Source of the DNA: Schleiferiaceae bacterium
GTDB taxonomy: Bacteria; Bacteroidota; Bacteroidia; Flavobacteriales; Schleiferiaceae
NCBI GenBank assembly: GCA_022565875.1
Contig: JAIULY010000003.1
Coordinates: 1 to 43,553 of the forward strand
Length of the DNA: 43,553 bases
Reading direction: 5' to 3'
Shown here piece after piece: positions 38,770 through 43,024 of this stretch. Below the pieces are notes generated by a model. It saw only the letters and a list, made by a program, of their open reading frames with translations, was not told where the DNA came from and did not search any database. The stretch's first letter is position 1. The number at the start of each line of letters is the position of its first letter. The translations under genes and the position numbers were made by a program.

Positions 38770-39657
38770 TCAATGCATGGCTTTGAAGTCGGGCTCATAA
38801 ATGATACGGACAAAGGAACTCAAGCCCTTTATTTCTCGGTTGATTGGAATTCCCGAAACGATACCAATCATTAATTTTTCTGAAATAGCCACACGCATTT
38901 GCGGGCGAAAGACGGTCAGCAATTGCCTTTCCACGACTTCTTTATTGATTTCAACACCAATAAAATTCCGTGTTCCGGAGATCATATAATGAAAATTGGT
39001 ATTGATTTCGAAGCTACGTTCCCAGTTGGGGTTATCAAACTCTTTTAGGAATCGAGGGCCGGTATAGAGTAACGTATGAAAATTGCGTCCCCAGCGTTTA
39101 GCTGCAATAAAAAATGGATTGTATAAATTCCCTTTGAAGATATCGTCAAAACGCAACTCATTGAGATTTACAAACTCAAACTCATGAATGTAACCAAGGG
39201 CTAGCGTGGTACTATATTTTTCAGAGACCAAAAAAGACCATTGCGTAGCGAGTTTCAGGCTTTCCATTCTGTTTGCGGGTAAAGTGCTCGCTGCCTCGCC
39301 AGCAGGTTGTCCGAACAAGGTAAACGGCACTTCAATTTCAAAACCCAATCTATCTATAGGCGCCCACTCGTATTCAACAAGGGCTTCGTATTCGTTGTAA
39401 TTGCTACCCGCTTTCATACCACCGGCAAAGTTCCACTCCTTCTCACCTGCCCTTGCGCCTAAATCACGAATGAGATCAATGTAAAGCGGTTCGGCATGGA
39501 GCACCTTGGCTTTGCCTCCTGGTTTTCGCTCAATCTCTTCTATAAACAAACTGTCTTTAAGTATATTCTCTTCTCTCACGCTATCGCGCTCACTTTGCGC
39601 CAACAAATCACCACTAAAAAGGATTATACCAATGGCAATTGCCCAGAAATACTTCAT
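38770..39657 (-). CDS. Outer-membrane barrel-like protein (HAEPL family)
   Basis: This encodes 295 residues with a signal peptide (MKYFWAIAIGIILFSGDLLAQS). The mature chain has a segment HAEPLYIDLIRDLGARAGEKEWNFAGG, which is characteristic of a Bacteroidota family of unknown function, followed by many short amphipathic strands (YEALVEYEWAPIDRLGFEIEVPF, YSTTLALGYIHEFEF). A barrel in the outer membrane is inferred. It has its own promoter (39672-39703). The exact role is not known. Confidence 0.7.
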   Translation of the reverse strand: MKYFWAIAIGIILFSGDLLAQSERDSVREENILKDSLFIEEIERKPGGKAKVLHAEPLYIDLIRDLGARAGEKEWNFAGGMKAGSNYNEYEALVEYEWAPIDRLGFEIEVPFTLFGQPAGEAASTLPANRMESLKLATQWSFLVSEKYSTTLALGYIHEFEFVNLNELRFDDIFKGNLYNPFFIAAKRWGRNFHTLLYTGPRFLKEFDNPNWERSFEINTNFHYMISGTRNFIGVEINKEVVERQLLTVFRPQMRVAISEKLMIGIVSGIPINREIKGLSSFVRIIYEPDFKAMH

Positions 39658-39671
39658 GAGTTATTTTTTTG

Positions 39672-39703
39672 CAAAAGTATTGCCGTCTAATAGGAATAGG
39701 CAA
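39672..39703 (-). promoter_or_regulatory. Promoter of the barrel-like protein gene
   Basis: On the minus strand TTG (39701-39703), a 21-base spacer and TACTTTTG (39672-39679) match the Bacteroidota pattern. The ATG is 14 bases further on. Confidence 0.65.
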
Positions 39704-39789
39704 CGGAGGGCATTGGTTTTAATGGAAATTTTAGGTGGTGTGGGTAATCGTGATGCACTTCGGATTCGTGGCCGGAGCGGCTTATCCCT

Positions 39790-39965
39790 CCGCCCTCGGG
39801 AAACGAGTCGTAATTCATTCCGCACATCTTTCCATAGGGTTTGGGAGTCTGGAAGTTAGGAGGTTAGGCGTGGCGTTCCGGTGATTACGTTTGGTTTATT
39901 CATTGCACGATTCTTTTTTGGAACACGGAGTTCCACAGAGTTGGACACGGAGTGGCACGGAGGTT
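39790..39965 (+). repeat. Dispersed intergenic repeat, copy A
   Basis: A GGGAAACGAGTCG/ATTCATTCCGC lead is followed by GTTTGGGAG, GGTTAGGCGTGGCG (39862-39875), then TTATTCATT-CACG and a TTTTTTGGAACACGGAG tail. The lead and core match copy B and the core and tail match copy C. No transposase is nearby and no terminal inverted repeats are clear. Confidence 0.65.
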
Positions 39966-40059
39966 TATGAAGGTTTCTAGTTCGATTCCTTCGGAATCTC
40001 AATTTGAGTAGGAGATTCCCACATGCACCTCCCGTCTTCCTGTGTCCCCCAAACGCAGT

Positions 40060-40153
40060 TCATAAACCTGCATGCGCCGCAAGGCGCACGCAATAAACTG
40101 CGAGAGCGGGCGCAGCCCACGAAGCGATAAACCCCAGCCGAAGGCATAAACCC
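40060..40153 (+). repeat. Hairpin array I (ATAAAC boxes with GC hairpins)
   Basis: Four ATAAAC(C) boxes (starting near 40062, 40093, 40127 and 40146) alternate with short hairpins: TGCGCC-GCAA-GGCGCA (40073-40088, a GNRA loop), GGGC-GCA-GCCC (40108-40118) and GCC-GAA-GGC (40137-40145). Stem sequences differ while the boxes and layout are kept, so folding appears to be what is conserved. Confidence 0.65.
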
Positions 40154-40245
40154 CTCGAGGAAACGCATCGTTATTCATTCCGCGAACATTTCCAGATACG
40201 GTTTGGGGGTTTGGAAGTTAGGAGGTTAGGCGCGGCGTGTGACGG
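40154..40245 (+). repeat. Dispersed intergenic repeat, copy B
   Basis: AGGAAACGCATCG and ATTCATTCCGCGAACA lead into GTTTGGGGGTTTGGAAG and GGAGGTTAGGCGCGGCG (40221-40237). It matches the first half of copy A closely. The tail of copy A is missing. Confidence 0.65.
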
Positions 40246-40308
40246 CAAGAGAAAACGGATTTCAAAACAACGCCCGCCTTTCACTTCGACTCCGCTCAGT
40301 GACCGGCT

Positions 40309-40365
40309 AACTTTCCACTTTCCACTTTCAAACTTTCCACTTTCCACTTTCAAACTTTCCACTTA
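40309..40365 (+). repeat. 22-base tandem repeat
   Basis: Two complete identical 22-base units (40309-40330 and 40331-40352) and a 13-base partial unit. Each unit is built from AACTTTCCA and CTTTCCACTTTCA. A minus-strand frame across it reads as ESGKFESGKWK-like repeats and is not a real protein. Confidence 0.85.
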
Positions 40366-40371
40366 CACCCC

Positions 40372-40471
40372 CTCTAAACCAAGGACGGCGTCAGCCGACC
40401 TGTCTAAACCCAAACAGCAGGCGACCTAGCCTGCTGCTCTAAACCCAAGCGCGTCAGCGCGTCTAAACCAA
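40372..40471 (+). repeat. Hairpin array II (TCTAAACCCAA boxes with GC hairpins)
   Basis: Four boxes TCTAAACC(C)AA start near 40373, 40403, 40438 and 40462. Between them lie three different perfect hairpins: CGGC-GTCA-GCCG (40386-40397), CAGCAGGC-GACCTA-GCCTGCTG (40415-40436) and GCGC-GTCA-GCGC (40449-40460). Two have the same loop GTCA on unrelated stems. Confidence 0.7.
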
Positions 40472-40569
40472 TCGGGAAACGCAACGATGTACTACCAAAC
40501 CAATATTCCTTATGACACCAAGTCCTCCCCGCGCGCGCCGTGGTGATTTTAACGACTTAATGAGACGAT

Positions 40570-40998
40570 TTATTTAATCACAGTGATTGTTCCTTTGTAA
40601 GCGGCTTCACCAATGGTGCTGGTGTAAAAGTATACTCCTGCGGGCAAATTGCGCGGATCCCAGCAGTTTTCGGGAGTACTGCTTTGAAACACTTGCTGGC
40701 CCCAGCGATTGAATATTTGGATCTCAAAACAGTCTGCAAATGATGCGGCCTCCTCAAAACACCAAAAATCGTTGATGCCATCGCCATTGGGGGTGATGAC
40801 GTTTGGGAAGTCCGAATTTGAAAAATCTGTATTTTCAATAGGGATTACAATGTTTACAACGTCCCTACATCCGTCTAAAAGGGTTTCCATTTCTAGGGCA
40901 ACTGCAGTATCGCCTCCAACATACGAAAATTGTACTTGGTGACCCGTGGCCTCTCCGCCTGACCAACGCCAACGAACTTGCGCGTTTGCTTCACCTGT
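40570..40998 (-). pseudogene. C-terminal part of a broken T9SS cargo gene (gliding-motility C-terminal domain)
   Basis: These 142 codons continue in the same frame as the gene to the right, after a TAA at 40999-41001. The sequence reads TGEANAQVRWRW, then the gliding-motility-associated C-terminal domain: NVITPNGDGINDFWCFE, IQIFNRWGQQVFQS, NLPAGVYFYTSTIG and AYKGTITVIK. That domain directs cargo to type IX secretion. The only internal ATG (near 40890) lacks a signal peptide, so this part could not be exported if made alone. With the upstream part, the ancestral protein was about 739 residues. Confidence 0.8.
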
Positions 40999-42789
40999 TT
41001 AGGTGAGGAAAATGGCCGCCCCTTCACAAGAATTGGAAGTGCTTGCTGTGTACGAATCACTTGCGGAGGGGCGAACAGTAACCAACACACTATCCGAAGG
41101 ATAACAACCAGACGTGTCGGAAATAATCACCCAAAACTGACCGGCCTGTTGCCAGATATGTGACACTACAGGTGCCAGCGTATTGCCCGCTTCTTGAAGC
41201 TGACTGGAACCGTCTCCAAAGTTGTAATGCCAAACCCGATGCCGCAAATGACCCGGTTGAAAATACACTGGATCGCCCGCACAAACTGTTGGGGAGCTTA
41301 CTGAAAATGGTTCTAATTCAGTTGCACTATAGCCTACCTTAAAGAAAAAACTGTCCTCAGGCCAAATAATGCTTTCTGCTAAAGCATGCCCATAAATCGG
41401 GTGTGTTGCGGCAGGCTGAAAAGGTGGTGACACAAAAGGATAATGCGTAAAATGAATAGCATGGAAACCACTATCACTCTGTAATTTATAAAGGCCTGGA
41501 GGTATTTCAATCAACCCATAGGACCATTGCGGGTCAGCTGGAAATGGAGAGAATAAGTTGCCCGCTATGGGGTTGCCATTGAGCCGCAGTGCACCAAGAC
41601 TATTGGTTTTTGCTACCACCTTTATAAAATACTGCACGCCTGTATCAGGTTGTGTAATGGTAGAAAACAGCGTTTCTTTTATCAACTCATCATCTGAACT
41701 TAAGGTGACTGACCAACCATTTGCCGCATCTTCATAAATAGAGGCTTCGTGGTAATTGCATTTGCCCTCAAAACCGAAAAGCCCATTGGAGCTGGTAATG
41801 TGTAAGGCCGCTGCAACACACGTATCCATCCGATCCAGTCTATTCAAGCGCCGCACAAAAACACCATCAAAAAATACATCCGTTGCATCTTCTGCAGCCA
41901 TTAAACTAATAACCCGACAAGGTTGATCTACCAAAGGGCCCACATGGAAAGAGGTGCCTTCGTAACCGAAGGGTTTGCCGTCTTCAATAATTGCACCTGC
42001 GAACCCATCACTATTTGAACATTTGGCAGAGTTAGAGTTTACATAAATCTTAAAAGACTTTTGGTTAGCTGAATATATTCTTGTCTGATTAACTTGGCGT
42101 TCACTCCTAAAACTATTAAAAACCTTAATATCACCTTTATTCAAATGATAAGTTATCAAGGTATCAGGAGGAAAATAAATTTGAACACCTGAGTTGGAAA
42201 TAAAAGTAGAAGTTGCTATATTAATTTGATTGCTGTCTTCATCTGAAAGTACTCTAATCTCAGTAAAATCAGAAATAAATCCCTGTTGTTGGAAATTATC
42301 ACTTACAGAAGTGATCCCAAAAGGATAAAGCGTGTCGTTAAGATTTCCTTTTGATAATACTGTTGCCTCGGAATAAAAAGCAGTACCTTCTCTATCATTC
42401 GGGTTATTTGACCCCATTACTTGATAAACAGAAACTGGTGCGGTAGAATAAATCCAAAACCCCCTTTGAAATAATGAATCACCTGAAATCTGGTTGATAT
42501 ACGGTAATGTAATTACCCATAAACTATCTTTTTCCAAAAATTTAGTTTCATAAATCTCGCCGAAGGGGAAAGCAAAAGCAACACAACTGGAATTTACACC
42601 ATAAACGTAAATAAATGTTCTAATATTGGTATCTGGATCAGGGGAAGATAATGTGAAATTTAGACTAAAATCCGAATAAGTTGAAAAAAAATAAGTCCCT
42701 GCTTTATGATAATTATCCTGAGCAACCACCTGTAATCCAAAAAAAACAAACCCTACGCATAGGGCTTGTTTTAGTGTTTTAAAAATCAT
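40999..42789 (-). CDS. N-terminal part of a T9SS cargo protein, ended by an in-frame TAA
   Basis: This 596-residue product has a signal peptide (MIFKTLKQALCVGFVFFGLQVVAQ), a large region resembling the IgGFc-binding-type N-terminal domain of Bacteroidota adhesins (IYSTAPVSVYQVMGSN, FTEIRVLSDEDSNQINIAT, AAEDATDVFFDG), and a PKD domain (WHYNFGDGSSQ, VSHIWQQAGQFWVIISDTSG). It ends at TAA within a PKD-like stretch (CEGAAIFLT), and the sequence continues in frame into the sorting domain at 40570-40998. A product ending here would lack the signal for T9SS export. The ATG at 42789 is preferred over a TTG at 42807 that overlaps the next gene. Confidence 0.75.
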   Translation of the reverse strand: MIFKTLKQALCVGFVFFGLQVVAQDNYHKAGTYFFSTYSDFSLNFTLSSPDPDTNIRTFIYVYGVNSSCVAFAFPFGEIYETKFLEKDSLWVITLPYINQISGDSLFQRGFWIYSTAPVSVYQVMGSNNPNDREGTAFYSEATVLSKGNLNDTLYPFGITSVSDNFQQQGFISDFTEIRVLSDEDSNQINIATSTFISNSGVQIYFPPDTLITYHLNKGDIKVFNSFRSERQVNQTRIYSANQKSFKIYVNSNSAKCSNSDGFAGAIIEDGKPFGYEGTSFHVGPLVDQPCRVISLMAAEDATDVFFDGVFVRRLNRLDRMDTCVAAALHITSSNGLFGFEGKCNYHEASIYEDAANGWSVTLSSDDELIKETLFSTITQPDTGVQYFIKVVAKTNSLGALRLNGNPIAGNLFSPFPADPQWSYGLIEIPPGLYKLQSDSGFHAIHFTHYPFVSPPFQPAATHPIYGHALAESIIWPEDSFFFKVGYSATELEPFSVSSPTVCAGDPVYFQPGHLRHRVWHYNFGDGSSQLQEAGNTLAPVVSHIWQQAGQFWVIISDTSGCYPSDSVLVTVRPSASDSYTASTSNSCEGAAIFLT

Positions 42790-42799
42790 GTAGGTACGT

Positions 42800-43024
42800 T
42801 TATTCAATTACAATGCGCTTTATCTCGATTTGGTCTTCGCCAATTACTTTGACAAGGTACATCCCACTTGAAAGGTTTTGGATATTTATTTGGAAATTCT
42901 TTTGTGCAAAGGTTTTTTGTTCAAAAATCTGTTTAGCTGATAGGTCAAAAATTCTGAATTGTTGCATTTCACATAAGTTAGTTTTTAATGAGCCAAGCAA
43001 GATTAAAAAACACGAGGACCTCAA
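42800..43024 (-). pseudogene. T9SS type A sorting-domain remnant
   Basis: The last 50 codons match a T9SS type A sorting domain (FRIFDLSAKQIFEQKTF, INIQNLSSGMYLVKVIGED, IKRIVIE). The part ahead of it (SSCFLILLGSLKTNLCEMQQ) has no adhesin domain, the frame starts only with TTG at 43024, and an ATG at 42967 gives just 55 codons. It is most likely the 3' end of a larger cargo gene that has been lost. It is followed within about 10 bases by the next cargo gene. Confidence 0.6.

Follow-up and report, generated by a model that had tools for sequence, protein, structure and literature searches.

In the analysed stretch of DNA (the window, 43,553 nt), two minus-strand genes are separated by an intergenic gap at 39657-40570, which contains about 900 nt of repeat DNA. 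Two arrays, alpha and beta, lie within this gap, and each consists of four boxes and three different hairpins, giving eight boxes and six hairpins in total (Table 1). The alpha boxes read ATAAAC or ATAAACC in the window, and within the beta boxes the word TAAACC starts at 40375, 40405, 40440 and 40464. An earlier note on this DNA had placed the arrays correctly, with hairpins between the boxes, and its account of reused loops (GCAA once, GTCA twice) is borne out. Its term "perfect hairpins" is slightly too strong. It applies to beta-2 and beta-3, while beta-1 and alpha-1 carry an A.A and an A.C mismatch, respectively, and in alpha-2 a looser outer stem encloses a short inner one.

Table 1. Arrays, hairpins and joined repeats in the intergenic gap, in window coordinates.
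Feature	Position	Strand	Basis
Alpha leader (TCCCCCAAACGCAGTTCA)	40045-40062	+	common to alpha copies, 12-copy alignment
Array alpha, boxes TAAAC(C) at 40063, 40094, 40128 and 40147	40063-40152	+	sequence; box changes in 0/240 cells, 12 copies
Hairpin alpha-1, TGCATGCGCC/GCAA/GGCGCACGCA	40069-40092	+	one mismatch (A.C) in window copy
Hairpin alpha-2, inner stem GGGC/GCA/GCCC within TGCG...CGCA	40099-40123	+	inner stem kept in 12/12 copies
Hairpin alpha-3, GCC/GAA/GGC	40137-40145	+	alignment of alpha copies
Joined repeat module CCTCGAGGAAACGCATCG...GGTTTGGGGGTTTGGAAGTTAGGAGGTTAGGCGCGGCGT, outside the hairpin arrays	40153-40238	+	direct repeats D2 and D4; many genome copies
Palindromic repeat word CACTTCGACTCCGCTCAGTG, joined repeat	40282-40301	+	sequence; recurs in several composite loci
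Tandem (AACTTTCCACTTTC)-type tract running into array beta	40309-40367	+	direct repeat D3; precedes beta in other loci too
Array beta, boxes TCTAAACC at 40373, 40403, 40438 and 40462	40373-40471	+	24 well-preserved genome copies; box changes in 2/480 cells
Hairpin beta-1, AGGACGGC/GTCA/GCCGACCT	40382-40401	+	one mismatch (A.A); most variable module
Hairpin beta-2, CAGCAGGC/GACCTA/GCCTGCTG, perfect 8 bp	40415-40436	+	97% of cells paired, 22 copies
Hairpin beta-3, GCGC/GTCA/GCGC, perfect 4 bp	40449-40460	+	97% of cells paired, 22 copies
Beta right end TAAACCAATCGGGAAACGCA	40464-40483	+	common to beta copies; sequence beyond differs from copy to copy

The region 39640-40570 and most of the fetched loci are intergenic mosaics, in which repeat words are arranged in a loosely fixed succession (GGAAACGnATCGTTATTCATTCC..., GGTTTGGGAGTTAGG..., GGAACACGGAGTTCCACGGAG..., CCCCGTG...CCGTGGTGAA, and then the hairpin arrays). 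Read in array orientation, G-rich words tend to lie on the left and C-rich words on the right. The CCTCGAGGAAACGCATCG...GGTTTGGGGGTTTGGAAGTTAGGAGGTTAGGCGCGGCGT module has a second window copy at 39799-39876. Decamer tracts of the type (TTCATAAACC)n occur at three loci (L015, L016 and L019) and on contigs C65, C103, C134 and C260; at the three loci they lie near alpha in the opposite orientation, so that the box word is found on both strands around alpha. The counterpart in the window is formed by 39955-39971 and 40059-40075 (GGTTTATGAA and TTCATAAACC, respectively), a longer-range inverted pair. The adjoining gene for a T9SS-sorted protein (40570-42807, minus strand) has an in-frame stop near 40999 that divides it into a PKD-like part (40999-42807) and a CHU_C sorting domain (40570-40890) in the same frame, which reflects either truncation or an assembly error.

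The genome (Bacteroidota; 3.15 Mb in 312 contigs, about 93% complete) holds many further copies. A DNA search with the array sequence gave about 70 matches (71 places). With a covariance model of beta, 24 well-preserved copies scored above 120 bits, besides about eight that are shorter or degenerate, and a model of alpha found 12 good copies in addition to partial ones; these copy numbers are lower bounds, as many copies lie at contig ends. The arrays are intergenic and occupy more than 20 places in the genome. Six contigs (C105, C107, C168, C205, C212 and C241) end within or beside arrays. Hence, the arrays break the assembly at contig ends, which accounts for the breaks at such places, and the true copy number may be higher. 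In this genome, the triple-box pattern has 75 matches and its reversed control has none. These 75 matches fall into beta arrays (47), (TTCATAAACC)n tracts (25) and other places (3), and a listing of all triple-box places in the genome revealed no mixed hairpin arrays of another type. Alpha and beta are often joined to each other by fixed linkers, as beta-alpha-beta (L009, L013), alpha-beta (L016) or alpha-alpha-beta (L015), and adjoin other repeat words.

Beyond this genome, the beta model found no copy in 87 family relatives and the alpha model none in 395 order genomes, while a DNA search of 98 relatives returned nothing beyond short common repeat words; these comparisons were made at family and order level, with no genome of the same genus among them. 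Two core patterns gave no match in IMG/VR. In a collection of named genomes, the triple-box pattern was found in at least 117 stretches, and the inspected ones proved to be chance matches or repeats of the coding or simple tandem kind, a few with one repeated hairpin and none with a mixed set like that of the arrays. An order-wide search with the same pattern placed most other genomes near the reversed control, and the listed excess consists of simple tracts such as (TAAACCC)n and (TAAACCT)n. Other order genomes (e.g., G385, G303, G228 and G359) carry telomere-like simple tracts, namely (TAAACCC)n, (TAAACCT)n, (TAAACCA)n and (TAAACCCAA)n. As far as these searches reach, the arrays thus appear to be confined to one lineage. 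The earlier note had recognised no described element, and indeed Rfam 15 gives no match to any described RNA family up to E 1 (39600-40700), and literature searches with array sequence words retrieved unrelated papers only. Likewise, the arrays are not CRISPR, as the note had stated. A CRISPR array has identical repeats and unique, non-palindromic spacers, whereas the "spacers" here form hairpins and turn up again in other arrays.

The boxes are almost uniform among copies. Among the 24 beta and 12 alpha copies, which were gathered by sequence score and leave badly eroded ones (C229 and an alpha remnant in L011) outside the count, the box letters TAAAC are off consensus in 2/720 cells compared with 203/2578 elsewhere (~8%). 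Changes private to one copy are absent from the boxes (0/720) and present in 43/2578 cells elsewhere (Fisher 4e-5; 0.002 when the contrast is limited to A/T positions). The boxes were thus protected, or kept uniform, after the copies had separated. In the two degenerate copies, boxes and stems are eroded alike. The loops follow a rule of their own, with G as the first base in 102/108 and A as the last base in 107/108 cases. Inner loop bases are changed in 18-23% and loop ends in 4-6%. The resulting loops are of the GNA, GNNA or GNNNNA type, closed by a C-G pair, and the alpha-1 loop, for example, reads GCCA, GAAA, GCTA or GCAA among its 12 copies. Near-invariant boxes, preserved loop ends and the number of copies all agree with the view in the earlier note that the arrays are not plain decay.

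Avoidance of even private changes in the boxes might mean that TAAACC boxes are duplex sites for a chromosomal protein (nucleoid, gyrase or regulator) that the host maintains. We regard this as very improbable, however, because copies with eroded boxes exist, the sites are limited to one lineage in the family and order searches, and binding to duplex DNA leaves conserved loop ends with free inner bases unexplained.

Beta folds far better than dinucleotide shuffles (z -5.2 as DNA and -4.2 as RNA; 0/200 shuffles as good), and folding of the alpha copy in the window is marginal by the same comparison (z -1.7 and -2.0). The earlier note had interpreted stems that vary while pairing is kept as covariation, and this part of its reading fails. 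Stems within one array differ because the modules differ, and each module recurs elsewhere with the same stem, such that stems are preserved through sequence identity. In an alignment of true copies, beta has two pairs with double changes compared with 1.2 in shuffles (135/500 shuffles as high), and alpha has none. Strong "covariation" in model-fitted pools was rejected as an artefact of laying alpha on the beta model and vice versa; it arises because different hairpin modules are overlaid, and the effect seen by eye in the earlier note is identical. By the note's own terms for refutation, its reading is half refuted: copies within the genome are real, none occur in the relatives searched, and stems change without compensating partners.

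These results bear on the possibility that the arrays are structured RNA, transcribed such that unpaired UAAACC boxes bind a protein in the manner of sponge RNAs or mRNA leaders. Fixed unpaired boxes and stable hairpins on the TAAACC strand would fit such an RNA, as would the constraint on private changes in the boxes. Eleven arrays have two known neighbours, and they lie between tandem (7) or divergent (4) genes and in no case between convergent ones (counted by hand), which is also in line with transcription. However, array orientation relative to the next downstream gene is the same in 13 and opposite in 9 cases (counted by hand), and the lack of a fixed relation to genes argues against a leader, riboswitch or terminator. 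The search for a sigma-70-type promoter in 39640-40600 and for a Bacteroidetes-type promoter (TTTG/TAnnTTTG) in the array part of the window gave no match. A role as promoter or terminator was rejected, given that no promoter matches at the arrays and that the sole terminator-like site lies outside them at chance level. Moreover, true copies lack compensatory changes, Rfam offers no match at E 1, and about 30 copies would be unusual for a functional RNA. Most tetraloops are GNCA and not the RNA-favoured GNRA, which tips the balance towards DNA without deciding the matter. For DNA, GNA loops are described as forming mini-hairpins of exceptional stability (Yoshizawa et al., 1997, as cited in PMC6479982). 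Altogether, we consider structured RNA improbable; the arrays behave like a small mobile passenger repeat and not like a conserved host RNA.

An addition to the genome is seen at another beta array (L011), whose neighbouring genes we take from their sequences to be pdxA and yceD. The gap between them measures 718 nt here and 47-106 nt in 18 family or order relatives; in five other relatives, pdxA does not lie beside yceD. The additional DNA contains one beta array and joined repeats. Next to yceD, the sequence has kept its likeness to the short promoter region seen in relatives, and hence the repeat DNA seems to have been inserted upstream of it. The relatives with the short gap are too diverged for a base-by-base alignment that would reveal a target duplication or an empty site. 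Repeat DNA has opened up two neighbouring genes that elsewhere in the order lie close together.

Arrays differ from each other by loss or swapping of whole modules, and the joints coincide with boxes. For instance, alpha-1-alpha-2 is joined straight to beta-2-beta-3 at L015 (joint alpha2|beta2), beta-1 is followed by beta-3 at L027 (joint beta1|beta3), and beta-3 stands alone behind the alpha linker at L003, L021 and L022 (joint linker|beta3). Replication slippage is well known to cause such loss or exchange where hairpins are flanked by short direct repeats. A special recombinase is therefore not required, though one may take part. We think it improbable that the TAAACC box serves as a genuine site of recombination or cleavage, in a system with one fixed core word and many hairpin partners, at which a yet-unrecognised enzyme shuffles the hairpins as exchangeable, non-coding single-stranded DNA "cassettes".

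Could the arrays be a passive mosaic repeat without any dedicated enzyme, whose copies grew and spread through replication slippage, through switching of templates at hairpins and through gene conversion among intergenic repeats, with boxes that act only as short direct repeats? The position of the joints is what slippage between direct repeats around hairpins predicts, the surrounding DNA is itself a mosaic of many repeat words in loose fixed order, TAAACC words also make up simple tandem tracts, both in this genome and elsewhere in the order, and no transposase is associated with the arrays. Slippage does not, however, carry arrays to more than 20 separate gene neighbourhoods or put more than 600 nt inside the conserved pdxA-yceD pair, and the G...A loop rule is left without a reason. 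We consider this explanation rather unlikely, although it is the strongest of the alternatives.

Several known families share features with the arrays. BOX elements of Streptococcus pneumoniae and S. suis are intergenic and dispersed, are composed of boxA, a variable number of boxB and boxC, and are predicted to form stem-loops; they are thought to be mobile passengers, with no proven dedicated enzyme (PMC3049150). The arrays are likewise modular, dispersed and folded, and vary in the number and order of hairpin modules, a likeness of architecture. In contrast to BOX, they occur in another phylum and lineage, and their six different hairpins are set apart by one short invariant word, on which the joints fall. 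REP elements and REPINs are tagged hairpins thought to be moved by RAYTs that recognise single-stranded REP DNA (PMC3116915; PMC3733652; PMC6006769). Arrays and REP/BIME/REPIN elements alike are clustered and dispersed, with short hairpins of about 20-35 nt between genes and, 5' of the stem, a conserved word that is left unpaired; as in REP/REPIN, short palindromic units are present in many intergenic copies in one genome. However, the word 5' of every array hairpin is TAAAC(C) and not GTAG or CGTC, and one array combines several unrelated stems in a single orientation and does not form inverted doublets. Small, non-autonomous, folded and lineage-limited intergenic copies are also typical of MITEs as outlined in PMC3049150 (Correia elements, RUP, Nezha), but a repeat search found no inverted pair that bounds either array as terminal inverted repeats would. 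Apparently, the arrays represent a new, undescribed, lineage-specific family of modular interspersed repeats.

Taken together, we consider it reasonably probable that the arrays are a lineage-specific, non-autonomous, modular interspersed repeat of the REP/BOX kind, which folds as a single strand and is spread in trans by an enzyme. The TAAACC strand, once single-stranded (most likely as DNA during replication), would fold into successive mini-hairpins between unpaired boxes. An enzyme supplied in trans and acting on single strands, of the HUH/Y1 type known from the movement of REP elements, might recognise box and hairpin and copy the arrays to new sites, or might have done so formerly. The boxes, as direct repeats around the hairpins, would then let slippage or recombination drop or exchange modules, resulting in the observed mosaic. 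Degenerate copies with eroded stems and boxes are expected if old copies are not maintained. Invariance of the boxes in private changes, in contrast, is not predicted by purely selfish spread unless recombination or a host function keeps the copies uniform. The grammar of such a repeat is unusually legible (one unpaired word that does not vary, hairpins that can be interchanged, and a fixed loop-end rule), and the loop-end rule allows a direct test of whether single-strand folding or sequence decides which small repeats spread.

A search for candidate enzymes identified no reverse transcriptase in the genome, so that retro-transposition was rejected, and a single Y1 transposase gene of the REP type (contig C111, L037:84-602), whose score of 61 bits against NF047646 lies below the curated cut-off of 80. 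As the assembly is about 93% complete, a second RAYT-like gene could be missing from this count. The gene found is flanked by its own GGGGTACCC repeats and not by arrays, a further difference from REP/REPIN systems, and was rejected as the array mobiliser for lack of linkage. Thus, the enzyme acting on the arrays would be another gene, a lost gene, or none. The GGGGTACCC palindromic repeats, which likely are the RAYT-like transposase's own repeat family, cluster beside it at L037:1-120 and also at C134:8042-8201. At a further locus (L010, about 2000-2600), several copies of CGTAGGGGCGGGGCTTGTCCCCGCC with the look of a GTAG-tagged REP family coexist with arrays.
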